IMG/VR virus record: IMGVR_UViG_3300047354_000437
Span: 1-20,960 of that record
Direction: 5' to 3' (one strand)
Length of the DNA stretch: 20,960 bases
DNA from: a virus
Positions 2,855-20,960 of this stretch are shown one piece after another. The notes under the pieces are model-generated. The model was not told the DNA's origin. It saw only the letters and a program-made list of their open reading frames with translations, and made no database searches. The position numbers and the translations under genes are program-made. Every line of letters begins with the position of its first letter. The first letter of the stretch is position 1.

Positions 2855-3283
2855 ATGAATACCACGGCGGCTGGAGTAGTTTTCCTAGCCAAAGACACAG
2901 GCAGATGCATGTTGCAACTCAGAGAAGGCAACAAAAGATTTAATCATACTTGGGGTTTTTGGGGAGGCATGATGGAGAAAGGTGAAACTCCTTACAACTG
3001 TATTAAACGTGAGTTAGAAGAAGAGATTGGATTTGTTCCAGAACTGCAAAAATTAAATCCTATAGACGTATACCAAAGCAAAGATCAAAATTTTTATTAC
3101 TACAGTTTTGTATATGTGGTAGATAAAGAATTCCAACCACCAAAATTAAATGGAGAAAGTGCCGGATACGCCTGGGTAGACATAGGTCAATGGCCCAAAC
3201 CATTGCACAATGGTGCCAAAATTACATTAAGTAAGAATGGTGGCACACAAAAACTGCACACTATACTTAAAATAAATTCCTGA
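2855..3283 (+). CDS. Nudix hydrolase
   Basis: Nudix enzymes cleave nucleoside diphosphates linked to another group, using Mg/Mn held by the Nudix-box glutamates. The box Gx5Ex7REUxEExGU is complete at residues 38-60: G38, E44, R52-E53, E56-E57, G59-F60. The 142-aa length is normal for a single-domain enzyme. The substrate cannot be read from the sequence; phage relatives act on ADP-ribose, dinucleoside polyphosphates, oxidised dNTPs or capped RNA ends. The ATG follows the gp15 stop with no gap, so it is translated in the neck/tail late operon rather than with nucleotide metabolism genes, which is odd for a housekeeping-type pyrophosphatase. Its TGA overlaps the next late promoter. Confidence 0.88.
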   Translation: MNTTAAGVVFLAKDTGRCMLQLREGNKRFNHTWGFWGGMMEKGETPYNCIKRELEEEIGFVPELQKLNPIDVYQSKDQNFYYYSFVYVVDKEFQPPKLNGESAGYAWVDIGQWPKPLHNGAKITLSKNGGTQKLHTILKINS

Positions 3284-3289
3284 TAAATA
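3282..3289 (+). promoter_or_regulatory. T4-type late promoter (GATAAATA), 210-aa gene
   Basis: GATAAATA overlaps the last bases of the Nudix gene stop (TGATAAATA) and ends 6 nt before the ATG at 3296. There is no SD in the intervening TTTCAT. This is the second case in which the predicted start point falls on or within 1-2 nt of the start codon. Confidence 0.65.
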
Positions 3290-3928: not shown

Positions 3929-5998
3929 TTACTTAGATGTTTTACGTTCTATTCCGTCCCAATCTCCTACAGGCATAGGTTGTTTAATTCTTTCTGCATA
4001 AAGATCTGCTAGAGTATTGTTCCACTTATGATCTTTAATTATCTCTATTTGATGTGAACACTCTGCCCATGCCCTGTTTTGATAACTATCAACCATTCTG
4101 TTTACTACTCTTGCATATTTGTGATCATTTAGTATAGTATAAATTGTTACAGGATCAGTTTGTCCTTTTACTGCTATTTTATCCAGCATAGTTAAATTTT
4201 CTGGAGTGCTAATCTGTTTTAGTGTATGTTCTGTAAACATAAAGAATACACCGTACTCTTTTGTTTGTGCTTCTAGTCTCGCCGCTAAATTAACACTATC
4301 ACCTAAAACAGTATAATCAAAACGTTGGTTACTACCCATATTACCTACTACAGCATCTCCTGTATTAATACCTATACCAACACCTAACTCCATGAGTCCG
4401 TCTTCTTTAAGTTCTTTATTAAGATTTTTTAGTTCAACTTCCATTTCCTGTGCTGTTTCTATTGCCAACTGAGCATGATTGTCTACATCAAGTGGAGCAT
4501 TCCATATTGCCATTAAGGCATCGCCTATATACTTGTCTATTGTTCCTTCTTTACGCATAACTAAATCAGTCATTGGTGTCATATATCTATTAATAAGATT
4601 GCCCAAACCTTGTGGGTCTGTTTTAAACTGTTCCGATATCGGAGTAAATCCACGAATGTCTGAGAACAAGTATGTCATTGTTCTTGTGTCGCCACCTAAA
4701 CGTAATAAACTTGGATCTTTCTGTAACTTCTTAACCATTGCTGGTGCCAAGTAATGCTCAAATTGTTTTTTAATTTGTTCACGTAATTTAAACTGTTTGT
4801 AAAAGTTATTAAATGCCGCCTGTGTGAATACTAAAAAGCCACTTAATACAGGGAAAGACGCATCTAATAATACTAACTGGCTTGTATATAGATGTACACT
4901 ATAATACCCTATTCCGCCCAAGATAAGCAACGATACTGGCGCCGTTAGTAGTAAAGGGAGTCTATATACTGCTATTGCTACTAGAACCATTATCAGAAGT
5001 GCTGTCAGAAGCTCATAGAACGCGGCTGTTTGACTTCGTGTTATGTTACTGCCACTTATAAAGTTCTGTAGCATATGAGCTTGTATCTCTTGTGGATATA
5101 AGTTTCCACGTGGCGTTGGTACAGGGTTTGCTATACCCTCTGCTGTTACGCCTACTATAACCATTTTACCTGCTAAATCTGGTATGCTGTCTGCACCTGT
5201 ATACTCTATAGTTTCAAAACTATTATTAAATCGTATATATGCTGTACCATCTGGCTGTGTTACTATTGGTTCAACTCCTTTAACAGCAACCTCTTGTATA
5301 CCTATTTCACTGGTCTTAACTATATAACTTTTTTGCCCTCTGCTTACCCTAAGCATTTCAACTGCAAAACTAGGATAAATTCTGTCCTCTACAGTTATTG
5401 CTAATGGATAAGTCCTTGTTTGATTATCTGGTTGTGGGGCAGAAGCATTTACACCTTTACCATTCACTACAGACTCTAATATAGATATATTTGTAACTAA
5501 GTTGGGCCATTTAAGTAAATAGTCTTTTGCAGGTACTGGTCCTACTGTTCCTGTGCCTATATGAGGTCCTGATGTTTTTATACCTCTAACACTAGGTGTT
5601 TGACTTAGAACATTAAAATTAATAGGGTTACGCCTTGCTCCTTGTACATTTACTTTATTTTGTTCTAAGTATTGTCCAAATACTTCATCTCCACCAAAGC
5701 GATCTGATTCTGGAAACATTATTGTCCAACCTAAAACACCACTATTTTTACTAGCAACATCTACAACTAACTGAGCATAATATTGTCTGGGAAAAGGATA
5801 TTGCCCAAAGGTTGCTAACGTGTTTTCACCAAAGTTTAATAATACAATATCATTACTAGGTAAAATTTCGTCTAATTGCTGATAACTATCAAATACTTGT
5901 CCACGTAAACTTTGTACTGGAGTTGGATCTGCAACTCTGAGTACAAGTAAAAGTACAATAGATAGAGCTATCGCATAGCCACTGTATAACCATTTCAT
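3929..5998 (-). CDS. CHASE2-domain class III adenylate cyclase
   Basis: This is a membrane receptor that should turn ATP into cAMP in response to a periplasmic signal. Layout: TM at ~8-22, a CHASE2-type extracytoplasmic sensor at ~25-320, three TM segments at ~327-395, a linker helix, then the cyclase domain at ~435-600. The catalytic set is complete: metal-binding D447 (FSDIRGFT) and D493 (IGDALMAIW), adenine-selecting K489 and D567, transition-state N570 and R574. The K/D pair argues for ATP rather than GTP. A ~85-residue tail follows. The ATG is 5 nt after a late promoter octamer, with no SD. A receptor cyclase is unusual cargo for a lytic phage. It sits near the csg-like operon, and I recall CHASE2 cyclases often lying beside FecR-domain genes in bacteria, so the two may be linked; that is inference. 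Confidence 0.92.
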   Translation of the reverse strand: MKWLYSGYAIALSIVLLLVLRVADPTPVQSLRGQVFDSYQQLDEILPSNDIVLLNFGENTLATFGQYPFPRQYYAQLVVDVASKNSGVLGWTIMFPESDRFGGDEVFGQYLEQNKVNVQGARRNPINFNVLSQTPSVRGIKTSGPHIGTGTVGPVPAKDYLLKWPNLVTNISILESVVNGKGVNASAPQPDNQTRTYPLAITVEDRIYPSFAVEMLRVSRGQKSYIVKTSEIGIQEVAVKGVEPIVTQPDGTAYIRFNNSFETIEYTGADSIPDLAGKMVIVGVTAEGIANPVPTPRGNLYPQEIQAHMLQNFISGSNITRSQTAAFYELLTALLIMVLVAIAVYRLPLLLTAPVSLLILGGIGYYSVHLYTSQLVLLDASFPVLSGFLVFTQAAFNNFYKQFKLREQIKKQFEHYLAPAMVKKLQKDPSLLRLGGDTRTMTYLFSDIRGFTPISEQFKTDPQGLGNLINRYMTPMTDLVMRKEGTIDKYIGDALMAIWNAPLDVDNHAQLAIETAQEMEVELKNLNKELKEDGLMELGVGIGINTGDAVVGNMGSNQRFDYTVLGDSVNLAARLEAQTKEYGVFFMFTEHTLKQISTPENLTMLDKIAVKGQTDPVTIYTILNDHKYARVVNRMVDSYQNRAWAECSHQIEIIKDHKWNNTLADLYAERIKQPMPVGDWDGIERKTSK

Positions 5999-6003
5999 AC
6001 CGA

Positions 6004-6011
6004 TATTTATC
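6004..6011 (-). promoter_or_regulatory. T4-type late promoter (GATAAATA), cyclase gene
   Basis: The complement of 6004-6011 reads GATAAATA. It lies inside the palindrome CGATAAATATCG-like sequence at 6001-6012 and ends 5 nt before the cyclase ATG (5996-5998). The motif overlaps the end of the upstream 155-aa gene. No SD is present. Confidence 0.65.
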
Positions 6012-6474
6012 GTATTTTATTGCAATTTTGCTTGGCGTCATTTAGTAGTCTAAAGTTATTTACTACCACAAACATATATAGCATATTGGTGCTATTTAAT
6101 TCTTCTGGAGTAAGTTTTTTATAACCATCGTTATATAACAATGATGGAGCCAGTATTAAAGTTTTTGTTGCAACTATCCTAGAATCACTTGGACGTTCTG
6201 TGTATAATGGATTTATTTCTCTTATACAATCATACTTTATTGCTCGTGATGTTGAGTAAGCATCTAATATTTGGAGTGTAAAAAATGTAACCCATTGAAC
6301 TTTTGTTATTTTTTGATCCATATCAAACTTAAATGTGCTACTTGGAAGTTGTTGGCACTCTGGTGGATTATTATCGCAGTAATACGGGTCTAGTGGAAGA
6401 TTATAAGTGAGATCTAATGACATTGCATTCAAAGAAAAAAGCGACAATAAAAATATTATTACCGCTTTGATCAT
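6007..6474 (-). CDS. Small exported/membrane protein, DUF5658-like region
   Basis: This 155-aa protein starts with a typical signal peptide (hydrophobic ~3-15, probable cut after SLNAMS or nearby). The N-terminal periplasmic stretch has YCDNNPPEC. A hydrophobic segment (~57-72) leads to a TLQILDAYSTS...REINPLY pattern, resembling the D...T...E-NP layout of DUF5658-type small membrane proteins, and then a further hydrophobic helix. I cannot give a function. The start is 3 nt after the stop of the -1 frame of the upstream lipoprotein gene, so frameshifting there could couple to its initiation. Its SD is weak. The YCxxNPxEC motif is shared with the -1 frame extension of its neighbour. Confidence 0.7.
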   Translation of the reverse strand: MIKAVIIFLLSLFSLNAMSLDLTYNLPLDPYYCDNNPPECQQLPSSTFKFDMDQKITKVQWVTFFTLQILDAYSTSRAIKYDCIREINPLYTERPSDSRIVATKTLILAPSLLYNDGYKKLTPEELNSTNMLYMFVVVNNFRLLNDAKQNCNKIR

Positions 6475-6477
6475 TGT

Positions 6478-6606
6478 TTACTCGCACTCTTTAGGATTTT
6501 CAGAACAATATTTTTCAATTTTGTCCATATTTTCAAAAAGTAACTGCACCAACTCCTTGGTACTTAATTCCTTCTTACCATTTATCCTATCTAAGAAGGT
6601 TAGTCC
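6478..6606 (-). other. -1 frame extension of the lipoprotein (42 codons)
   Basis: Reading on in the -1 frame after the AAG of the slippery site gives GGA CTA ACC and 39 more codons to TAA 6478-6480. The segment ends EKYCSENPKECE and looks like real protein (Lys/Glu/Leu rich, no rare runs). It has no ATG except one 16 codons from its end, and no usable SD, so independent initiation is unlikely. The fusion product would be 146 aa (104 + 42). A simple indel in the A6 run, natural or from sequencing, would give the same picture. Confidence 0.55.
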
Positions 6607-6612
6607 TTTTTT
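6570..6612 (-). promoter_or_regulatory. Programmed -1 frameshift signal (slippery site + hairpin)
   Basis: On the - strand, A_AAA_AAG (6612-6606) is in the correct phase of the lipoprotein frame (CCA AAA AAG GAC TAA). After a 6-nt spacer (6605-6600), CCTTCTTA (6599-6592) and TAAGAAGG (6577-6570) form a perfect 8-bp stem with a 14-nt loop. Heptamer, 5-9 nt spacer and stem-loop are the three standard parts of a bacterial/phage -1 site. There is no T-tract after the stem, so it is not a normal terminator. Confidence 0.6.
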
Positions 6613-6917
6613 GGTGCTTCTTCTTCGTCTTGTAGCTCGTCTGTTTGTCTATCTACTTCATCGGAAACTGTTTTCACAACACCTTTTCCGAGGTCTGCTC
6701 CAGCAACAACAACAGTCTGTGCTGTATCAATTGCTAAAGTTCCAACAGATACAACATCATCAGCAACTGCTGTAGTTATTGTAGCCGCTCCGCCAACTAC
6801 TGCATCAACAGTACCTGTGACAACTTCTGTTCCTGCATTCCAAACACCCCCAACTGAGGCACAACTTGTCATGAGAAAAAGACTAAACATACCGAAGACA
6901 GTCGTTAAATTCTTCAT
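6600..6917 (-). CDS. Small lipoprotein (105 aa; candidate frameshift gene)
   Basis: The N-terminus is a lipoprotein signal: MKNLTT, hydrophobic core, lipobox LMTSC with C19 as the lipidated residue. The mature part is Val/Ala/Thr/Gly-rich with an amphipathic quasi-repeat (VVTGTVDAVVGGAATITTAVADDVVSVG and onward, about 11 residues per period), then an acidic tail ending APKKD. The start is well supported by AAGGAG 8 nt upstream. The leader holds a 9-bp hairpin and a late promoter. The last codons contain A_AAA_AAG, and a -1 shift would extend it by 42 residues. A short lipoprotein among tiny membrane proteins could be an outer-membrane lysis component (o-spanin type), but there is no motif that proves it. 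Confidence 0.82.
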   Translation of the reverse strand: MKNLTTVFGMFSLFLMTSCASVGGVWNAGTEVVTGTVDAVVGGAATITTAVADDVVSVGTLAIDTAQTVVVAGADLGKGVVKTVSDEVDRQTDELQDEEEAPKKD

Positions 6918-6972: not shown

Positions 6973-6980
6973 TATTTATC
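6973..6980 (-). promoter_or_regulatory. T4-type late promoter (GATAAATA), lipoprotein gene
   Basis: The complement reads GATAAATA. The predicted start point is near 6967, giving a ~50-nt leader with a hairpin and a good SD before the ATG at 6917. A separate inverted repeat lies just upstream at 6987-7002. Confidence 0.65.
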
Positions 6981-7011: not shown

Positions 7012-7317
7012 TTAAATTCTAAGATCGTTTAAAGGCTCTGCACCTAAACTGTGCATATCAGCATACCACAATTCTGTTAATAAAATTTCTCTTGTACTTT
7101 CGTTTTCTGTGGCGTGTATCAACATTATTAAATTGTCTCTGTTTGATTGTTCTATTGTATAAATTAATTCTACCCATTTATATAATAATAAAAACATTAG
7201 AGGAACACAAATCATTTTTAATAGAAGCAGTGGATAAAAATATGCAAGAATAAAAAAATGACCACCTAATAAAGTGTAGGCGTATATTTTTAAACTTTTA
7301 GTGTATTCCGATATCAT
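7012..7317 (-). CDS. Small two-TM membrane protein, paralogue of the next gene upstream
   Basis: This 101-aa protein opens MISEYTKSLKIY and has two hydrophobic segments (~12-30 and ~31-50) followed by a ~50-residue polar tail with acidic residues. The N-terminal half lines up with the neighbouring 96-aa protein (MISKFTNSLRVY, then a His at the start of TM1, then a turn with Pro), so the pair looks like a tandem duplication. The start overlaps the upstream gene by 20 nt. Size and topology would fit a holin or antiholin, but there is no family signature, and that role is a guess. Confidence 0.7.
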   Translation of the reverse strand: MISEYTKSLKIYAYTLLGGHFFILAYFYPLLLLKMICVPLMFLLLYKWVELIYTIEQSNRDNLIMLIHATENESTREILLTELWYADMHSLGAEPLNDLRI

Positions 7318-7588
7318 AATCTATTTCTAAAGGACTATCTACTACATAAAATGACAAGTCTGGTGTCATAAACATATTATTACTTAAGAACATTGCTTGG
7401 TCTGAAAAACCTGATTCTTTATGTACTTGGTGTATAATAGACATCACTATGCCTATATAAGCACATGGAATAAAAAATACAAATAATATTAAAGATGTTG
7501 TAGGGAACATTGTTATAAACAAAAGTATATGACCCATTGCGATTGTGCCGCCGTACACTCGTAAACTATTAGTAAATTTACTGATCAC
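7298..7588 (-). CDS. Small two-TM membrane protein (GTG start)
   Basis: This 96-aa protein begins at GTG (7586-7588), reading MISKFTNSLRVYGG. Two TM segments at ~12-28 and ~30-51 are followed by a soluble tail ending DIGIH. It overlaps the preceding 59-aa ORF by 11 nt and the following 101-aa gene by 20 nt, as in a translationally coupled trio. It is similar to the 101-aa protein in the first ~55 residues but not in the tail. Two related, differently tailed small membrane proteins in a row is a layout seen for holin/antiholin pairs; not proven. Confidence 0.7.
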   Translation of the reverse strand: MISKFTNSLRVYGGTIAMGHILLFITMFPTTSLILFVFFIPCAYIGIVMSIIHQVHKESGFSDQAMFLSNNMFMTPDLSFYVVDSPLEIDYDIGIH

Positions 7589-7757
7589 GACTATCTAACT
7601 CTTCCTTTATGAGAAATCTCACATATTCGTCTGCATTAGTTAAATTATAGTCTGATACTATTGCAAATATTAAAGTTATAAAGACAAGTGTCATTACAAA
7701 CGATAGATATAAATTTATTCCGGCTGTGATCTTCAGCCACTTTATCATGTGTTTCAT
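7578..7757 (-). CDS. Tiny single-TM protein (59 aa)
   Basis: A short ORF starts MKHMIKWLKITAG. One membrane segment (~14-35, rich in Leu, Ile, Phe and Val) is flanked by a basic N-terminus and an acidic C-terminal tail (KEELDSRDQ). The charge pattern predicts N-in. It overlaps the next gene by 11 nt. A textbook sigma70-like promoter lies so close that the 5' UTR would be about 4 nt. M4 at 7748 is an alternative start. I do not recognise a family; it is probably real because of the promoter and the coupled overlap. Confidence 0.65.
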   Translation of the reverse strand: MKHMIKWLKITAGINLYLSFVMTLVFITLIFAIVSDYNLTNADEYVRFLIKEELDSRDQ

Positions 7758-7803: not shown

Positions 7804-8115
7804 TTACGATAACTTTTTTTGAATCCATTTGAAACTTGCATATATAGTCAAACCATAGACTGCAAATATTGTGAGAGGTATTGCCAGATAAGCAATAGTC
7901 CAAAAGTCTAAAAATAGTAATTGTGTTGTAAAGTCTAATACTGCTTCAGCATCTCCCATAGGTTCCAGTTGTAATGTTTCTGTGCTGTATTCCATGTCAT
8001 ATGGTTCTAGCATTTCGTTGAAACTTTCTTCTGTTACACATACCATACCTTCAGGACATTCAAATCCTCCTAATTCATATGGTAGTGGGTTTCCTAAGTC
8101 ATCTAAACTTTGCAT
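7804..8115 (-). CDS. Small membrane protein ending the curli-like operon
   Basis: This 103-aa protein has no signal peptide. A ~65-residue acidic N-terminal part contains a Cys pair (FECPEGMVC), followed by one long hydrophobic segment (~68-93) and a basic end (KWIQKKLS), so the likely topology is N-terminus outside, C-terminus in the cytoplasm. The start overlaps the stop of the second curlin-like gene (TAATG), so it belongs to the same operon. It could be an inner-membrane partner or chaperone for the exported proteins. I do not recognise a family. The Cys pair facing the periplasm matches the other proteins of this operon. Confidence 0.72.
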   Translation of the reverse strand: MQSLDDLGNPLPYELGGFECPEGMVCVTEESFNEMLEPYDMEYSTETLQLEPMGDAEAVLDFTTQLLFLDFWTIAYLAIPLTIFAVYGLTIYASFKWIQKKLS

Positions 8116-9005
8116 TAGTTATTCTGATTCACTGTAACTGAACAGCCTCCTCCATTATTACATATACCTGTAAGAGTATATGTTACTGCTGATGTTGAAA
8201 CATTTTGATTTAAATCAAATGTGTAAGCACCTGTACCAAATGTTAAATCAACTGTTGCAGAAGCATAATTTGTACCACGTTGATTAATATCAACACTATG
8301 ACCATTGCCGTCTAAAACAATGTCTGCCCATTTTTTACCACCACTGCCTTTTTGGTCTAAAATTACATCATTGTGATTGCCTGTGACTTCTATAAATCCG
8401 TCGTGTCCTGCCTTGCCTCTTTGTCTATGCCAAACATCATTATAGTCGCCATCAATTATATTTGCTAAGTGATGACTGTCTCCATTTCCACTATCTCGGT
8501 TAGTGTCTGTTTGAAAACTAGAAAACTCATTGTAGTCGCCTGTTACAGTCCAATATGCTTCGTGATCGCCTGTTTCATCTGTGTCAATGGAGCCGTCATG
8601 GTGCATACCTTGGAATACAAGTCCTGTATTATTTGTTCCAAATCCTGATAATCTAACAAAATTATCATTACCGCCGCCACCTTGGAATACTTTTAAAGTA
8701 TTAAGACCGCCACTGGTCCAATTACCTTCAAACAGATTACTAGTACCTGTTTGCATAATATGTAAAGTATTGTCGTCTCCTGCAAACTGGCTTGAGGTTG
8801 ATATACCTGTGACTGTGTTATCAGTACCTGCTTGTAGTATGTCTAGTTCTAAATTATCACCACTTATGTTACCTAAATATACTTCATTGTCATCTGCATT
8901 TGCTGATAAGGGTATTAATAAAAACATACCCAATATGATATATCCTAATACTAGTAGTGGAGTATCTTTGGGTCTCATTTCACTAAGTTGCTTATCTATG
9001 CTCAT
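8115..9005 (-). CDS. Curlin-repeat-like exported protein 2
   Basis: This is a candidate curli-type fibre subunit. The signal peptide spans ~10-37, with a cut after SANA leaving DDNEVYLG. The mature protein has repeated beta-strand units of the curlin kind (hydrophobic-polar alternation with QxGxxN turns): DILQAGTDNTVTG, HIMQTGTSNLFEG, VDINQRGTNYA, plus degenerate GDYN/GNHN turns, about ten in all. The canonical unit is Sx5QxGxxNxAx3Q; here several Gln and Asn positions remain. The C-terminus has a Cys pair (ICNNGGGC), which E. coli CsgA and CsgB lack. The mature N-terminus is clearly related to the 267-aa curlin-like protein upstream. A late octamer ends 5 nt before the ATG. The role as CsgG cargo is inferred from operon context. 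Confidence 0.7.
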   Translation of the reverse strand: MSIDKQLSEMRPKDTPLLVLGYIILGMFLLIPLSANADDNEVYLGNISGDNLELDILQAGTDNTVTGISTSSQFAGDDNTLHIMQTGTSNLFEGNWTSGGLNTLKVFQGGGGNDNFVRLSGFGTNNTGLVFQGMHHDGSIDTDETGDHEAYWTVTGDYNEFSSFQTDTNRDSGNGDSHHLANIIDGDYNDVWHRQRGKAGHDGFIEVTGNHNDVILDQKGSGGKKWADIVLDGNGHSVDINQRGTNYASATVDLTFGTGAYTFDLNQNVSTSAVTYTLTGICNNGGGCSVTVNQNN

Positions 9006-9010
9006 ATTAC

Positions 9011-9018
9011 TATTTATT
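9011..9018 (-). promoter_or_regulatory. T4-type late promoter (AATAAATA), curlin-like gene 2
   Basis: The complement reads AATAAATA, a NATAAATA variant. It overlaps the stop of the FecR-domain gene and ends 5 nt before the ATG at 9005 (AATAAATAGTAATATG, almost the same string as GATAAATAGTAACATG before the gp14-like gene). It would allow extra, internal transcription of the second curlin-like gene. Confidence 0.55.
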
Positions 9019-10186
9019 ACTCTTGTGTGATACTAATGAATATTCCTTCACATTCATTAAGGCACATTATAGTATCTCCTAAATCTTTATCACTGACTTC
9101 TATTTGTCCTGAATTGCCTCTTTTTATTTTTAAACTAACATAGTTTGTACCTTGCCTTAAAAAGAATACTTTACCATCTACATCAGGTACAATATTAAAC
9201 TGATTATCAGGCTGTAATCCAAATGCTCTGTCTACTAATCTATCACCTGCTGTGGCTTCTTCTCGTGTACCTAAAGTATCTGCTTCTTCCATAACCTCTA
9301 ATAAATCCCTTAAGAAGTCAACATCTAAAAAGTTTATATCTAATTCTGAAAATTCTAATTCACGTTCTGCTTGTTCGTCTAATCCTTCAATTTCTAAAAG
9401 GTCTATATCTAATCCGTTAAAGTCTAACAAGCCACCATCTCCTTTTAATTGATCTGCTTGTTCTTCTTCTGCCTGTACTATTTCGTCAGGCTTACTTATA
9501 ATAAACATATTGTCTATCTGATTTAAATCTAAGTCTACTAATGTTACAGGTTGTGTTGGTGCTTGTTCAAATGTACTAACCATCACTGCCTGAAAGGCTT
9601 CTTCTAATGTTACTGTTCCGCCATCATTAGTAACTGTTATACTACCACTGGGCCTACACCCTTCCTCTAATTTTACTTTGTCATCGCAATTAGCATCTGG
9701 TAATAATATAACTAAACTTCTACCCAATTCGTCAACTGTTGTAGTAAAATCTGTTCCCCTAATACCTATTGTGGCAGTAGGAGTTTGTATAACTATATTT
9801 TCTTTTGGTACTAAACCTAACCCGCCTGTGGCAAACCGTGCAGTCCCTTGCACAAAGTTCATTGCCATTTTACTTTTACTTGGGTCTGGGTCATAAACAT
9901 ACTCGTCTATTTCCATATATGTGTGTTCTGTTAAACTGACCTGTGTTTCATCAACAAACTGTATTTTAAGCCTGCCGTTCTCTGTTTCAACTTCGTCGAA
10001 ACTTACTATGTCTGTTTCTAAGTTTGCTGTTAGTTCTTCACCTGAAAGGCGAAATATATTTCCAGCCTTTCCACTTTGCTCAATTATGCCGCCAATTGAA
10101 TCATCGGCGGCATAAACATTTCCGATTGCAATTAGTAAAACTGCGACTAAAAGATTAGTCGGTTTGTTTAATACTAACTGAAGCAT
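9017..10186 (-). CDS. Exported FecR-domain protein
   Basis: Signal peptide 1-26 (cut after VYA). Residues ~50-160 form a FecR domain (PF04773 type), shown by DETQVSLTEHTYMEIDEYVYDP, NFVQGTARFATGG and TPTATIGIRGTDF (135-147). The middle (~205-305) is very acidic and Leu/Asp/Glu-rich, with irregular repeats (LDIDLLEIEGLDE, LDINFLDVDFL). The C-terminus is a small beta region with a Cys pair (CLNEC); another pair lies at NCDDKVKLEEGC. Free-standing FecR-domain proteins act in the periplasm as sensors or scaffolds; this one has no TM anchor and no sigma-factor partner here. The start lies 32 nt inside the upstream curlin-like gene, with no SD, so coupling is expected. The position between two curlin-like genes suggests a periplasmic assembly or surface component. 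Confidence 0.85.
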   Translation of the reverse strand: MLQLVLNKPTNLLVAVLLIAIGNVYAADDSIGGIIEQSGKAGNIFRLSGEELTANLETDIVSFDEVETENGRLKIQFVDETQVSLTEHTYMEIDEYVYDPDPSKSKMAMNFVQGTARFATGGLGLVPKENIVIQTPTATIGIRGTDFTTTVDELGRSLVILLPDANCDDKVKLEEGCRPSGSITVTNDGGTVTLEEAFQAVMVSTFEQAPTQPVTLVDLDLNQIDNMFIISKPDEIVQAEEEQADQLKGDGGLLDFNGLDIDLLEIEGLDEQAERELEFSELDINFLDVDFLRDLLEVMEEADTLGTREEATAGDRLVDRAFGLQPDNQFNIVPDVDGKVFFLRQGTNYVSLKIKRGNSGQIEVSDKDLGDTIMCLNECEGIFISITQE

Positions 10187-10958
10187 TTTCGCTGTCTAAC
10201 TCGACATTAATAATACCGTGACATGCAGGTGAACAGGTTGTAGTCATATTCTGAGTGAACTGGAAATCTCCATCACTACCTGTTAAGTCTACTGTTAAAC
10301 TGTGATCACTGTTACCACTTTGATTAGTAGCAAAAGCATTGTCATCACCTGTAATATCAAAGTTCCATACAACGTTGTCTGCATCAACTAAGATACCTAC
10401 CATTGCACTTGAACCTGTACAGTTTGTTCCACAAGAGTCACCATCTCCAGCCGCCGCCCAAACTTTACTATTTGTAAAACTAGTGTCGAAATCATTTCTG
10501 TCACCTAGTATTACTAAATCAAAGTTTAAACCTTCTGCACTGGCATTTTCACCTATACCTATGTCAAATAAGTTACCGTCACCCTGAATGCTTGAAAGCA
10601 TATCAGCATTATCGGCACTATTATCCCCTACGTCAAAATCAAAGATGTTGCCATCTCCTAGATTGTAAAAATCTAACACAGTTGATCCTGAACCGTCCAA
10701 AACAAGTGCACCAAAGAAATCATTGTTGTCACCGTCTTGTATAAGGTCTAATATTATGTTGTTACCAGTAAGTGTTAAGTCTGCTGTTGCACCGCTATTA
10801 CCAGACACAGTATTACCTGTACCTGCTTGTAGAATTGTTAATGTAAGGTTATCACCTTCCTGATCTATTAACACTTCGTTGTCATCAGCAATTACTGGGT
10901 TAGACATAAGTCCTATTAATGCGAAGACACCAACCGCTAAGTTTTTAATTATCTTCAT
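10155..10958 (-). CDS. Curlin-repeat-like exported protein 1
   Basis: I start this gene at the ATG at 10958 rather than 30 nt upstream, because GGAG lies 7 nt before it and it gives a clean signal peptide (MKIIKNLAVGVFALIG..., cut after VIA). The 267-aa protein then reads DDNEVLIDQEGDN and has curlin-like units: LTILQAGTGNTVSG, LDLIQDGDNNDFFG, SSIQGDGNLFDIG, VILGDRNDF, then QTD at the end. Mature N-terminal residues match curlin-like protein 2. Cys pairs (CGTNC, CSPAC) are unusual for curlins. The protein is very acidic (Asp-rich), so beta-helix folding may be calcium-aided. It overlaps csgG by 14 nt. The fibre subunit role is inferred from repeats plus context. Confidence 0.72.
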   Translation of the reverse strand: MKIIKNLAVGVFALIGLMSNPVIADDNEVLIDQEGDNLTLTILQAGTGNTVSGNSGATADLTLTGNNIILDLIQDGDNNDFFGALVLDGSGSTVLDFYNLGDGNIFDFDVGDNSADNADMLSSIQGDGNLFDIGIGENASAEGLNFDLVILGDRNDFDTSFTNSKVWAAAGDGDSCGTNCTGSSAMVGILVDADNVVWNFDITGDDNAFATNQSGNSDHSLTVDLTGSDGDFQFTQNMTTTCSPACHGIINVELDSENASVSIKQTD

Positions 10959-11982
10959 TATTTTTCTCCAATATTGGTTTATTTTCATTCTTTAAAAGAA
11001 TGCGTTTCCACAAAGGTAAATCATTTGGATCTTTAGAGTACTGTTCTTCATCTTCCTCGTCAGTAAGATTGCCTGCTTCTTTAAGACTCATCCAGTATGC
11101 TTGTTCTTGTTCTGCAACTTGTTGGTCCCAATCCTCAGGATAAACAATCTTCCAATATCCTCTTTCATCACCTTGCCTAATAAGTTCTAACACCGCGGCC
11201 TCGATCGCTGATCGGACTGCAAATGTTACACTTTCATTCTGTGTCATACCGCTTTCAAGTTCTAACAAACGAGTATCCATATCTACAAATCTAAATACGT
11301 CTCCTGCTTGTCCTGAACTTAAAACAGTTTTTTGTGTTTGCACGTTTAATATAACTTCACCTGTAAGTGTGCTTACAGCACGAAGTGATATTACTATGCT
11401 ATCTCTTCGATATTGGTTTGTTGTCCCAATACCCAAATATCTTGCCCCTGTACCTCCTGATTCAATATTAGTGTCGTATCCTATAACACCACCTTCTAAT
11501 ATCATACCAGCAAATAACATTGGCTGTAGTTCTTGAAACTCCTCTAGTCCGTTCTGCTTGGCAGTTTCGGATCTAGTACTTCGAACTATTTGTCTTTCTC
11601 TAACTAAGTTATCTAAACCTAGTCCTCTTTCAACTACTCTAAACCAAGTTCCTTTGGCATCACTACCTGAACCTGCCGCCTTTAGAGCGTCTACTAATAA
11701 ACTTTTTGCATCTTGCGTAACTGCTGTACTAAAACTAGCAACTCCGTCTTGACTTTTTCTTTGGCCTGTGCCATCTCCAAATTGATATATAGCAACCACA
11801 GGCATAACTTCTGCCGGTGGCAAATATCTAAGTTTTCTATATGTGGGTAGTTCAACTTTCTTAGGTTCTTCAACACACTCAAGAAAGTCTGTTTGGCACA
11901 TCTCATCGCCCGGAATAGCGATACTGGCACAACCACTTAAATATAAAACACCTATTAGTGCTATTAAAATATTTTTAGTCAT
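10945..11982 (-). CDS. csgG: CsgG-family outer-membrane curli secretion lipoprotein
   Basis: CsgG forms the nonameric outer-membrane pore through which curli subunits leave the cell. The lipobox is LSGC with C18 lipidated. The CsgG domain runs from ~55 to ~280 and matches the E. coli protein closely in key places: ASFSTAVTQDA, VVERGLGLDNLVRERQIVR, GGVIGYDTN, GGTGARYLGIGTTNQYRRD, SAIEAAVLELIRQGDERGYW. The constriction loop differs: E. coli has Tyr, Asn, Phe (mature Y51, N55, F56); here the Phe remains (F84) but Ser replaces Asn, no Tyr is present and the loop is one residue longer. A ~60-residue charged tail is extra. A strong AGGTGG SD precedes the TAATG overlap with csgF. Very confident on family; the phage role is inferred. 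Confidence 0.95.
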   Translation of the reverse strand: MTKNILIALIGVLYLSGCASIAIPGDEMCQTDFLECVEEPKKVELPTYRKLRYLPPAEVMPVVAIYQFGDGTGQRKSQDGVASFSTAVTQDAKSLLVDALKAAGSGSDAKGTWFRVVERGLGLDNLVRERQIVRSTRSETAKQNGLEEFQELQPMLFAGMILEGGVIGYDTNIESGGTGARYLGIGTTNQYRRDSIVISLRAVSTLTGEVILNVQTQKTVLSSGQAGDVFRFVDMDTRLLELESGMTQNESVTFAVRSAIEAAVLELIRQGDERGYWKIVYPEDWDQQVAEQEQAYWMSLKEAGNLTDEEDEEQYSKDPNDLPLWKRILLKNENKPILEKNNEDN

Positions 11983-12473
11983 TAACCACCTGCAATTTGG
12001 CCAATACCAATTGGTATTTCTATTGTTGTTATTGTTCCATCTGGGTCTACAATAGTAAGTTTAATTACTTCTAACCCATCTGCATTTGTAATAACTTCAT
12101 AGGTAACTGTATTACCTTCAATATCAAATGCTCCACTTGTTGATCCAGTACAACTAATTACGGTTGCAGGATCACAAAACATACTATCAACTAATCCTTT
12201 AGAAATTTGTGAATAAATCCTACTCTCCAAATTTCTAATAAATTTATTAATCGTGCTATTTTGATCTGCTCGTTCAGCCGCCTTTAAGGCCGCTTCTATA
12301 TCTGCTTTAATTTTATCCTTACGTGACTTTTCCTGGTTCTCAATAGTCAAATAATGAGCACCTGTTCCTTGTCCGCTAAAACTAGGATTCTTAAATTTAA
12401 ATTTAATTTCATCTGCTTGTAGACTAAAACTAAAAAGTCCTAGTAAAAAACATACTGGTAATATTATTTTCAT
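11982..12473 (-). CDS. csgF: CsgF-like curli assembly factor
   Basis: CsgF plugs into the CsgG pore and guides the nucleator in curli assembly. The signal peptide (cut after LQA) leaves DEIKFKFKNPSFSG, matching the FxFxNPxFxG peptide by which E. coli CsgF inserts into CsgG. The helical middle (~50-95, KSRKDKIKADIEAALKAAERAD, then RNLESRIYSQISKGL) corresponds to the CsgF helix but is longer. The C-terminal beta part (TYEVITNADGLEVIKLTIVDPDGTITTIEIP) matches the CsgF tail. Length is 163 aa against 138 in E. coli. Two Cys (MFCDPATVISC) are extra. The order csgF then csgG is as in E. coli (csgDEFG). ATGA overlap upstream and TAATG overlap downstream show tight coupling. Confidence 0.93.
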   Translation of the reverse strand: MKIILPVCFLLGLFSFSLQADEIKFKFKNPSFSGQGTGAHYLTIENQEKSRKDKIKADIEAALKAAERADQNSTINKFIRNLESRIYSQISKGLVDSMFCDPATVISCTGSTSGAFDIEGNTVTYEVITNADGLEVIKLTIVDPDGTITTIEIPIGIGQIAGG

Positions 12474-12766
12474 TTCTTCTTCCCTTCCTGTTTTTCCAGA
12501 GCCTCTTTCATTTTATCTTGCTCCAGTATTTTTTGTGTTGCTTTGTATTCCAACACTACGTTTACTTTCTGTTGCAAACGTATCATATCCTGATCTAACA
12601 TACGAGTTTTATCTATAACTCTTATAAGTGCAAAATGCATTTCTTCTAATGCAGGATCTATATGTTCTCCAATAAAGTTCCATATAAAATATATAAAGTA
12701 ACCCAGTCCTACAGTCATTACAACTGGAAAACCAAATTCAGAAATTAATGCACCTACATCTTCCAT
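12470..12766 (-). CDS. Small single-TM protein, paralogue B
   Basis: This 98-aa protein starts MEDVGALISEFGFP and has one TM (~12-32), followed by a long charged helix with heptad character (~36-90) ending in Lys-rich EGKKK. This matches the layout of small phage proteins often called holin-like (BhlA/UviB/YvrJ type): short N-terminus out, one TM, cytoplasmic coiled coil. It is a clear tandem paralogue of the gene before it (both open MEDxxxLIxExGxP). The gene has TAATG overlap on its 5' side and ATGA overlap with csgF on its 3' side. I know similar proteins in marine T4-like phages only as hypotheticals. It could be a holin-like factor, or energy/anchor support for secretion. Confidence 0.7.
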   Translation of the reverse strand: MEDVGALISEFGFPVVMTVGLGYFIYFIWNFIGEHIDPALEEMHFALIRVIDKTRMLDQDMIRLQQKVNVVLEYKATQKILEQDKMKEALEKQEGKKK

Positions 12767-13062
12767 TAATCTCTCCTAGCATCTACTTTGCCATCTTCTA
12801 CAAAGTTTTCTGCTCTTGCTATACGTTCGATATCTGGTCTTAATTCCAAAGCACTACTCACCAGTAAATCAATTTTCATCATTTCATTACTCATGGTACT
12901 TGCCCTGGCTTCTAAACTTTTACAGAAAATGGTTAAGGTTTTAACCTGATCGACAATACCTTGCATTATCTGTTTAATAACTAAAAAGATAAAAAATCCC
13001 ATTGCCATACTTCCGGCGATGGGGGCTCCTACCTCCGCAATTAATTTAAAGATATCTTCCAT
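12766..13062 (-). CDS. Small single-TM protein, paralogue A (first gene of the operon)
   Basis: This 98-aa protein starts MEDIFKLIAEVGAP with one TM (~13-32), then a helical, Met/Lys/Asp-rich region (~40-90). It shows the same start, TM position and length as the next gene, so they arose by duplication. AAGGAG lies 7 nt upstream of the ATG. It is the promoter-proximal gene of the curli-like operon, ~30 nt after the late octamer at 13093-13100. The function is unknown. The holin-like resemblance is by size, charge pattern and the MED start, not by a diagnostic residue. Confidence 0.72.
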   Translation of the reverse strand: MEDIFKLIAEVGAPIAGSMAMGFFIFLVIKQIMQGIVDQVKTLTIFCKSLEARASTMSNEMMKIDLLVSSALELRPDIERIARAENFVEDGKVDARRD

Positions 13063-13092: not shown

Positions 13093-13100
13093 TATTTATC
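13093..13100 (-). promoter_or_regulatory. T4-type late promoter (GATAAATA), csg-like operon
   Basis: The complement reads GATAAATA. The predicted start is near 13087, giving a ~24-nt leader that includes AAGGAG before ATG 13062. The terminator of the fibre gene (13138-13167) lies just upstream, so this should be the main promoter of the eight-gene operon down to 7804. Confidence 0.72.
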
Positions 13101-13137: not shown

Positions 13138-13167
13138 AAAAAAAAGGAGCAAATAAATGCTCCTTTT
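13138..13167 (-). terminator. Rho-independent terminator after the 1509-aa fibre gene
   Basis: On the - strand, AAAAGGAGCA, a 6-nt TTTATT loop and TGCTCCTTTT form a 10-bp perfect stem followed by a T-run extending to 13138 (eight T in total including the stem end). It starts ~15 nt after the fibre stop (13183-13185). The + strand also has a short T-run after the stem, so it might work both ways, but no + gene ends here. Confidence 0.88.
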
Positions 13168-17763: not shown

Positions 17764-19194
17764 TTATAGTAAAATCCGCTGTTCTAATTCGTCATTTAAG
17801 TCCCTGACCTTAATCCAGGAACTTCTTATATTTTGTCCTCTGTACATGCTCACTGTACCCTTTAATGCTACTAGTGTCCATCCTCTTTTAACTCTTGGTA
17901 TATACTCTCTGTCTGTGTCGTAATTTATAGGCATTACTGGTCTTCTTAACTCTGATCCATTTTCACTTGTCTCATATATTATGGCATCTTCTGGTAAGGC
18001 AAAATTAGGACTTAAACTTGATACATATTCACTATGTAGCACACCTGATTCATCTTTCCATTCAACAACTTTATACTTTGTGGACTTTTTATTGTCCATA
18101 TTATATTTGTCTTGCCAAATATTCCAACCTGTATTACCTATAATTGCCGCACTCTCAACTACTACACCAATTATGTTTTCATTATCATCATTAGCATCTA
18201 TAAGTTCACCTGCATCATTTATTGCAACTGTTAATCCTGTTCTATCTTCCTCTCTTGGATTACCATCTGCCCATTCAAAAACTTCTGCATAACCTGAACT
18301 ATTACTAAAAAATCCTTTGTGTGTAAACGTTTCGCCTGATCCAGTTACTCTAAACATACTTGCTTTGATATCTTCATTGCAATTATTTTTAGCATCTATA
18401 AAATTATAGGCGTCACTTACATCTGATGCATGTTGTAAATTTAATACATTACCAGCATTGTACTTACTTGCTGTAACTATATTAAATCCATCTACATCAA
18501 AATCATTATTATATGCAGTAAACAAACTATTATCAGGATCTTGATTTGTTCCTAATAAAACTTTTCCTGTACTGCCTACATTAAAACCCTGTCTATTTCC
18601 AGTACTTAATGCTCTGAAAATAAATGTATTTGTATCATCACCGTCGCCTTCTATTACAACACCTCTTGTACTTCCATCTCCATTAGTTGGAATTGGCGAC
18701 TTTCCAGCACCTTTCATTCTAAAGTGTGCTGTACCTAATCCTGTTGTCCTTGGCGATCTGTTTCCAAAAGCCAATGCACCATTATTAGTAAGTGTAAAGA
18801 CAACATCATCTGATTGTGCTTTCTTTACAGTTATGCCATCTACTGTGGCACTAATATCTACCAAACTGTTAGACATATTAAGAACTTGGCTCTCACCTCG
18901 TTGCATACTTTCTAACTGCTTTAATTTAGCATTAAATTCACTTTCTACTTCTGCCCTAATCTGTAACTTTAATTCTGTTAAATCTATGTTAGGTTTTTCT
19001 GCAGGTTCAAATTCAAATGAAAGTAATGTTTCCTCTAACTGTTCTTGTAATTCTTTCTTTAACTCTTTTTTTAGAGCGGCTTTTAATTTTTTTGAATCTA
19101 CTTCTGTAGATTTGGCTACCGGATTCTTTACTACTTTCTTTTCTGGTACCTTCTTTACTGTTTCTTTCTTTACAGTCTTTTTTGCTCTTGGCAT
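17764..19194 (-). CDS. Fibre/appendage protein with a peptidase G2-type C-terminal domain
   Basis: 476 aa. The N-terminus is very Lys-rich (MPRAKKTVKKETVKK), followed by a coiled coil (~35-100) that likely trimerises the fibre. A beta-rich middle (~105-290) has the pattern seen in phage pre-neck and tail appendages (GVVIEGDGDDTNTFIFRALST, FNVGSTGKVLLGT). Residues ~296-476 match the peptidase G2/IMC autocleavage domain known from the phi29-type appendage protein: GYAEVFEWADGN, EDRTGLTV, IIGVVVESAAIIGNTGWNIW and VKRGWTLVALKGTVSM. In that family the C-terminal domain acts as an intramolecular chaperone and cuts itself off after folding. SD AGGA lies 8 nt before the ATG; the 21-nt gap to the 315-aa gene fits one operon. 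Domain call strong; whether it cleaves here is unknown. Confidence 0.85.
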   Translation of the reverse strand: MPRAKKTVKKETVKKVPEKKVVKNPVAKSTEVDSKKLKAALKKELKKELQEQLEETLLSFEFEPAEKPNIDLTELKLQIRAEVESEFNAKLKQLESMQRGESQVLNMSNSLVDISATVDGITVKKAQSDDVVFTLTNNGALAFGNRSPRTTGLGTAHFRMKGAGKSPIPTNGDGSTRGVVIEGDGDDTNTFIFRALSTGNRQGFNVGSTGKVLLGTNQDPDNSLFTAYNNDFDVDGFNIVTASKYNAGNVLNLQHASDVSDAYNFIDAKNNCNEDIKASMFRVTGSGETFTHKGFFSNSSGYAEVFEWADGNPREEDRTGLTVAINDAGELIDANDDNENIIGVVVESAAIIGNTGWNIWQDKYNMDNKKSTKYKVVEWKDESGVLHSEYVSSLSPNFALPEDAIIYETSENGSELRRPVMPINYDTDREYIPRVKRGWTLVALKGTVSMYRGQNIRSSWIKVRDLNDELEQRILL

Positions 19195-20291: not shown

Positions 20292-20960
20292 TTATATAGT
20301 TTTAAGTGGTTTTGATAGTTCTTCCCAACTAGTTTCGAAATCTGAGTCACCATCTGCATAACCCATTACACCTAATTTTTCATATTCAGGTATAAGTTCG
20401 TCTGTTAGTAGTCCTATTCTTTTTAGGTTGGGCATTATTCGACTGAATAATACATCTTGAAATTGTGTTTGAAATATATGTTCTTTCTGATATGCTTCTG
20501 TTTGTTCTATGTCCATGCCATATTTTTCCCAAACATCATATGCTCTTAATCTGTTTCTGCTCACAGTACAGGCCTCTAAGGCAAATTGAGCTCTGTCTTG
20601 GCGTTCTTGTTCTGTAAGTGTTTTTACATATTCTTCTAAGTAGTTTACACCAAAGGTAACATGTCTGGCTTCGTCTCTGATAATATAATCTAACATTTCA
20701 TATAGTACAGGATCACTTGTTCCTGTTTTGGCGGCATTAAAGGCCGCTAATGCTAGACCTTCTATAACAATTTGCATACCAATAAACTTTAAATCCCATC
20801 GTGGGTCTGTAAGTATTTTGTCTAATAGTCCTTTAAGTGCTGTGCCAATAGGCCATGTACGTTTAATTCTGGTTTGTAAGTATTTGTTAAAGGCTTCTAC
20901 GTGTCTTGCTTCATCAAATGTTTGTGAGGCCGCATACAGTTTAGCATTAAATGTAGGAGC
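20292..20960 (-). CDS. Ferritin-like diiron-carboxylate protein (partial, 5' end missing)
   Basis: The - frame is open to the right edge. It continues 61 residues beyond the internal Met at 20777, so 222 residues are visible and the true start lies outside. Two helices carry the same metal-binding signature: FDEARHVEAF (residues ~15-24 of the visible part) and RDEARHVTFG (~95-104), each with an ExxH pair, plus a Glu in IVIEGLALAAF between them. E...ExxH repeated on four helices is the classical diiron site of the ferritin/RNR-R2/AurF superfamily. The C-terminal ~70 residues are amphipathic and charged. It could be an oxygenase, N-oxygenase or hydroxylase acquired from a host; the substrate is unknown. 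It is followed directly by the fibre-cluster promoter. Confidence 0.8.
   Translation of the reverse strand, partial: APTFNAKLYAASQTFDEARHVEAFNKYLQTRIKRTWPIGTALKGLLDKILTDPRWDLKFIGMQIVIEGLALAAFNAAKTGTSDPVLYEMLDYIIRDEARHVTFGVNYLEEYVKTLTEQERQDRAQFALEACTVSRNRLRAYDVWEKYGMDIEQTEAYQKEHIFQTQFQDVLFSRIMPNLKRIGLLTDELIPEYEKLGVMGYADGDSDFETSWEELSKPLKTI

Follow-up and report, generated by a model that had tools for sequence, protein, structure and literature searches.

The 20,960-base virus fragment IMGVR_UViG_3300047354_000437 (IMG/VR, positions 1–20,960), referred to here as the window, carries on its minus strand a tightly overlapping operon for a curli-like secretion unit. In the list of open reading frames (ORFs), two small membrane proteins (tmA, 12766–13062; tmB, 12470–12766) are followed by CsgF (11982–12473), CsgG (10945–11982), an exported curlin-repeat protein (curlin 1, 10155–10988), an exported FecR-domain protein (9017–10186) and a second exported curlin-repeat protein (curlin 2, 8115–9005). 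An earlier note on this DNA had placed CsgG, CsgF, both curlin-repeat proteins and the FecR-domain protein in one operon, and Pfam and PDB profile matches bear this out, along with the view that the unit sits in a phage context and brings its own curlin-repeat cargo. The note delimited the unit at 7804–13062; these ORFs are present, but the unit runs on to a CHASE2-adenylate cyclase at 3929–5998. The cyclase, a curlin-type tail on the FecR-domain protein and a jumbo-phage carrier were all missing from that account.

The pore genes are the clearest members of the operon. CsgG, an outer-membrane pore lipoprotein by homology (PF03783, E 3.5e-46; lipobox LSGC), belongs to a family whose profile matches E. 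coli CsgG structures in the PDB at 1.7e-64, and its ratio of nonsynonymous to synonymous substitutions (dN/dS) is about 0.1. The CsgF-like secretion factor (PF10614, 4.3e-13) keeps its plug peptide: the motif F-x-x-P-x-F-S-G is invariant in 13 relatives, and the segment can be aligned to that of CsgF in the PDB (FKNPSFSG / FRNPNFGG). The reported absence of CsgE was confirmed in that PF10627 was not found in six phage records searched, four of them possibly incomplete contigs. Because CsgE is likewise absent from previously described viral modules (PMC9599517), it is not required for the phage variant of the system.

Of the two curlin-repeat proteins, curlin 1 is conserved and curlin 2 is allelic. 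Taken alone, curlin 1 matches PF07012 at 4.6e-4, 0.2 bit under the cut-off, and 15 of its 19 orthologues match at E 0.01; its dN/dS is 0.16–0.23. Curlin 2 matches PF07012 over three stretches (2.1e-9), and its profile matches the solved curlin-repeat protein 8c50 (PDB, 8e-10). AlphaFold2 (AF2) models of both proteins are repetitive β structures, with predicted local distance difference test (pLDDT) scores of 68 for curlin 1 and 71.5 for curlin 2. By inspection, the repeats begin directly after the predicted signal peptide and the N22-type Gly-rich targeting leader is not present on the cargo; N22 is an exception among curlins, and hence not a defining feature (PMC10192328). Comparison with related loci (L numbers) showed that curlin 2 alone is replaced between close relatives, by allele swapping. 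Between the window and L005, the FecR protein and curlin 1 are 90% and 87% identical, respectively, while curlin 2 is only 45% identical; for L009 and L030 the corresponding values are 86%, 95% and 45%. Across relatives, the identity of the FecR protein correlates with that of curlin 1 at 0.97 and with that of curlin 2 at 0.61. Together with a PA14 domain on curlin 2 of phage HTVC008M, this swapping fits a ligand-facing subunit.

The FecR-domain protein (PF04773, 8e-11) ends in the same manner as the curlins. Its C-terminal strand, IFISITQE-COOH (9020–9043), fits a tail motif defined as φ-x-φ-x-Q-x(0–3)-COOH, the full curlin kernel being N-x-φ-x-φ-x-Q. The motif ends all 52 distinct phage FecR proteins, as compared with 220 of 8490 fragments overall, the modules included. 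Among the distinct proteins of the loci set, it ends 23/23 curlin 1 orthologues (SVSIKQTD-COOH in the window, 10158–10181, overlapping the start of the FecR gene), 22/22 FecR proteins and 23/23 curlin 2 orthologues (SVTVNQNN-COOH, 8118–8141; counted by a relaxed motif). It ends none of the CsgF, CsgG, tmA, tmB or cyclase proteins and 3 of 274 other phage ORFs, two of which are curlin 1 genes missed at first pass. Bacterial sequences gave 77 of 130 curlins versus 25 of 996 other ORFs, and 0 of 29 FecR loci, several of which cut the protein before its end, making this last count weaker than it looks. In a 250-kb relative (L010), an export signal and a curlin-type tail are combined only in curlin 1, FecR and curlin 2. 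Full-length homologues of the window FecR protein occur only in phage modules, and its bacterial relatives by profile match mostly form the N-terminal part of large open frames.

Since the terminal (half-)repeat of curlins sits at the subunit stacking interface (PMC10192328), the FecR protein may dock to curlin, and it seems to be part of the fibre via its fibre-type end strand. Regulation of a sigma factor was considered and rejected as its function: the protein has an N-terminal export signal, no further transmembrane (TM) segment and only PF04773 above cut-off. No FecI-type sigma gene was found among the window proteins scanned. The FecR protein is thus probably a cap, anchor or sensor of the fibre and not a sigma regulator.

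The operon opens with tmA and tmB, both of 98 residues and assigned to phrog_18771. Each has one predicted TM segment, to which tmA adds a helical tail. tmA is followed by tmB in 78 of 78 loci with enough sequence. The two genes are specific to the module, csgF coming next in 67 of 68 loci; of 385 alphaproteobacterial genomes searched by homology, 384 lack the pair, and the lone exception holds phage-module contigs. They correspond, by gene order and not by comparison with that paper's protein sequences, to the genes preceding csgF that are labelled 'histidine kinase' in PMC9599517. We rejected a histidine-kinase identity for proteins of only 98 residues with no HisKA/HATPase match in Pfam or NCBIfam. 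A holin identity for tmB, resting on a single weak holin-type PHROG match (E 0.09), was not accepted either.

At the other end of the module lies the cyclase, a class III enzyme of 689 residues (CHASE2, 7.6e-32; Guanylate_cyc, 5.6e-20; both Pfam). It can be aligned to solved adenylate cyclases and contains FSDIRGFT, DKYIGDA and NLAARLE, corresponding to the catalytic Asp, Lys and Asn-Arg motifs; its dN/dS is 0.09–0.13.

Upstream of tmA, GATAAATA at 13093–13100 was identified by motif enrichment and placement as the phage late promoter of the operon. A late promoter had been proposed at this position, and it does belong to a real late-promoter class, although one that reads GATAAATA and not the T4 motif TATAAATA; the latter was dropped, with 1 site in the window versus 3.6 expected. 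There are 7 copies of GATAAATA in the window versus 1.67 expected, a number reached in 0 of 100 shuffles. In 13 loci there are 44 intergenic copies, of which 40 have the start of a same-strand gene less than 130 bp downstream; the motif occurs 2.57 times per kb between genes versus 0.057 times per kb in coding DNA. An ATAAATA-type motif was present no more than 130 bp from tmA in 55 of 80 further loci. A terminator-like hairpin with a 10-pair stem and a T run (13142–13167) lies between the preceding fibre gene (stop 13183) and the operon, and the CTCCTTTTTTTTGAC sequence of this region is also found upstream in several relatives. Predicted transcription of the operon late in infection is well supported, because GATAAATA is both enriched and placed 5′ of same-strand genes, and because the terminator separates the operon from the fibre gene. 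Further copies of GATAAATA lie at 6004–6011, 6 bp ahead of the cyclase start codon, and at 6973–6980, ahead of a small lipoprotein gene (6600–6917). The promoter at 6004–6011, like one at 3282–3289 ahead of a 210-aa gene, ends approximately 6 bp before the start codon, a spacing that implies leaderless transcripts or later true starts.

Gene order is kept across 33 IMG/VR contigs and two isolates, and a tmA/tmB scan recovered at least 548 viral contigs. Where sequence suffices among the best 80 tmA loci, the order continues with csgF (67/68), csgG (63/64) and FecR (54/55). Purifying selection is strong on all of the core genes (dN/dS 0.02–0.23 versus nearest relatives). That the window might be a chimera of phage and bacterial DNA is excluded, since many independent contigs keep the gene order. 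In related phages, csgG and csgF were not found without these neighbours. In a single locus, L232, tmA and tmB occur with neither csgF nor csgG, and the cyclase and FecR genes lie downstream on the opposite strand; this is either a rearrangement or a misassembly.

The carrier is, as judged from sequence, a large marine bacteriophage of a jumbo lineage in the T4 superfamily. Its tail-sheath stabiliser places it closest (39%), among isolates, to Pseudomonas jumbo phages of the PA5oct type and to Sinorhizobium phage Phosso. L010 shares the module and its neighbours with the window, and its terminase is 58% identical to those of PA5oct-like phages and 52% identical to that of Phosso; tmA is also present on contigs of up to 340 kb. 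Unlike the window, the PA5oct-like phages (about 287 kb) and Phosso gave no match when the phage collection was searched for CsgG. The module is flanked by fibre genes and neck genes in the jumbo lineage, but comes after replication genes (those for ssDNA-binding protein) in HTVC008M and in phage Melnitz, indicating that the cassette has moved between phage lineages. Our literature search returned no account of a curli cassette in jumbo phages, although papers beyond those searched could differ. Having reached a jumbo-phage lineage too, the cassette is not confined to a single phage family.

Units of this kind are known from SAR11 phages. csgF and csgG have been reported in pelagimyophages (PMC7029224) and in Melnitz, for which a role in lysis was hypothesized (PMC9004378). 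Wittmers et al. 2022 (PMC9599517) described the order CsgF-CsgG-CsgA/B-FecR-CsgA/B-cyclase in podo- and myo-pelagiphages. Because that study already gives the full set, with the two fibre genes as well as FecR and the cyclase, the claim of the earlier note that the window's unit is more complete than those reported does not hold. The pelagiphage type VIII secretion system module (PMC9599517; HTVC008M, KC465899; Melnitz, MZ577097) likewise comprises two small proteins, CsgF, CsgG, curlin, FecR, curlin and adenylate cyclase. It differs in that CsgG is only 42–47% identical to that of the window and lacks its C-terminal extension (seen relative to HTVC008M CsgG), in the absence of the extra small membrane proteins, lipoprotein and 155-aa protein found in the window between curlin 2 and the cyclase, and in its carriers, which are Kyanoviridae or podoviruses.

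Bacteria hold the two halves of the unit apart. Alphaproteobacterial curli operons resemble it in the order csgF-csgG-curlin-curlin, in needing no CsgE or CsgD and in curlin tails such as HSVTVTQN; the five examined (csgF undetected in one) have no FecR, cyclase, tmA or tmB, and neither do 74 other bacterial csgG loci. Conversely, seven bacterial loci place FecR beside a CHASE2 cyclase without curli. These pairs (L169–L173 and L180 among them) share with the phage unit the pairing of a CHASE2 transmembrane signalling enzyme with an adjacent exported FecR-domain protein, but are unlinked to curli and their FecR lacks the curlin-type tail. In Burkholderia biofilm control, FecR/CHASE2 is paired with a histidine kinase (BiofilmReg operon, PMC5192318). 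Since curli and FecR-cyclase form two distinct operons in bacteria, a fusion of both, with tmA and tmB added, is the best reading of the phage unit.

We consider it reasonably probable that the operon serves, late in infection, to build a curli-like fibre on the infected-cell surface, secreted by CsgG and CsgF; what it does beyond secreting a curlin fibre late, we infer. CsgG and CsgF would form the outer-membrane pore, with curlin 1 as the conserved core subunit and curlin 2 as an exchangeable subunit that would face the ligand. FecR could cap or anchor the curlin solenoid by docking its terminal strand at the open end. tmA and tmB may be inner-membrane partners, perhaps replacing the missing CsgE or gating. 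As in bacteria, the FecR domain and the CHASE2 cyclase might act as a periplasmic sensor pair, here reporting the state of the fibre as cyclic AMP (cAMP). A tentative extension, to which we give rather less than even weight, is that phages fused two bacterial operons, one for curli export and one for the FecR/CHASE2-cyclase pair, to give a single late unit. In it, FecR would cap or anchor the fibre and let the inner-membrane cyclase sense that the fibre is secreted or has bound a target. To our knowledge, no secretion-coupled signalling device has been described for any curli system.

Several observations weigh against a secreted, signalling fibre. Curlin 1 by itself narrowly misses the Pfam cut-off, the AF2 models of the curlins are of moderate confidence, and Foldseek searches against the PDB returned nothing below E 0.07, several of the nearest entries being solenoid-type folds. 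The FecR tail is only 7–8 residues long, with the full kernel, including Asn, in just 7 of 52 proteins. No fibre has been seen, and the module-carrying Melnitz did not clump in culture (PMC9004378).

The likeliest benefit of a fibre would be adhesion, with neighbouring cells or debris tethered so that progeny have more encounters, and we prefer this to the other roles that can be envisaged. The same fibre would be needed if it instead formed a coat that blocks competing phages, as proposed in PMC9599517, and an exchangeable curlin 2 would suit phage-phage competition. Late timing is late for superinfection exclusion, which sequence does not separate from adhesion, and we regard it as unlikely. 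A less probable role is lysis timing, with the CsgG/CsgF pore repurposed in a pinholin-like or gated manner and the curlin-repeat proteins serving as plugs or bystanders, as proposed for Melnitz (PMC9004378). Late expression, as predicted from the promoter, and the small membrane proteins ahead of csgF, one with the weak holin-type match noted above (E 0.09), would agree with it. Nonetheless, the cargo genes are conserved in the unit under purifying selection, members of the CsgG family are outer-membrane lipoproteins and not inner-membrane holins, and CsgF retains its plug peptide. Moreover, the Melnitz proposal presumed that csgA/B were lacking, yet the Melnitz record annotates curlin-repeat proteins.

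Adhesion by a surface fibre also accounts for the unit better, in our view, than two further proposals. The position of the module between fibre and neck genes in the jumbo lineage, under a common late promoter type, could mean that the curlin-like proteins are fibres or whiskers of the virion. With export signals on all of the cargo, an outer-membrane secretion pore next to it, and a position after replication genes in HTVC008M and Melnitz, this is improbable. We give least credence to nutrient uptake (siderophores, vitamins), in which CsgG would act as an ungated pore and FecR would regulate iron, as suggested in PMC9599517. The name of the FecR domain and the absence of CsgE from the six records searched speak for it. 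Against it stand the export signal and curlin-like tail of the FecR protein, the lack of a sigma partner gene in the window and the nature of the bacterial profile relatives of FecR, given above; late expression is also a poor fit to feeding replication. Phage curli modules are common in the ocean, and their accessory genes have so far been read as iron regulation and histidine kinases, labels that are not supported for the window proteins. A testable replacement is that FecR is associated with the fibre by a shared C-terminal strand, curlin 2 is an exchangeable face, tmA and tmB are module-specific membrane partners, and the cyclase and FecR form a pair, as they do in bacteria.

Between curlin 2 and the cyclase, the minus strand of the window carries accessory genes: a small protein with a C-terminal TM segment, found in few relatives (7804–8115); three variable small membrane proteins of 59, 96 and 101 residues (7012–7757); the small lipoprotein; and an exported 155-aa protein (6007–6474) with a weak DUF5658 match (E 3.4e-4, below cut-off). 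The 101-aa and 96-aa proteins (7012–7588) resemble tandem paralogues, beginning MISEYTKSLK and MISKFTNSLR. This gap is an insertion hot spot in relatives (L010, 13830–16977; L007, 11800–12540; L011, 10164–13073), with genes that vary from one to another and by eye resemble those for oxidoreductases, glycosyltransferases, sulfotransferases and sugar epimerases. Two insertions between the lipoprotein and the cyclase (L017, 15112–19769; L025, 9457–14012) encode a secreted protein of 450–480 residues made up largely of Thr-Asn repeats, an exported protein of about 1070 residues and a TM/coiled-coil protein, possibly further surface cargo.

Contigs with the phage curli module also occur in metagenome-assembled genomes (MAGs) labelled Saprospirales, Planctomycetaceae, Synechococcus, Rhodobacteraceae and others (L037–L042, L118, L174, L175), and MAG G006 holds four csgG copies of the phage-module type. 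A bacterial origin was rejected for L037–L042 and L118, which contain the phage module and whose taxonomic labels are mixed; L118 looks phage-like, and all of them were treated as misbinned phage. A short unannotated record with csgG (Salmonella phage S.Kent 1-2-1, OR851715.1, 1499 bases) may be host sequence.

G+C content of the window is 32–41%, and tRNA and Rfam scans of it gave no match. The fibre gene at 17764–19194 carries a Peptidase_G2 (intramolecular chaperone autoproteolysis) domain. A ferritin-like/R2-like gene at 20292–20777, which looks partial and has weak matches to R2-like oxidase and the ribonucleotide reductase small chain, is kept upstream of the fibre genes in relatives.

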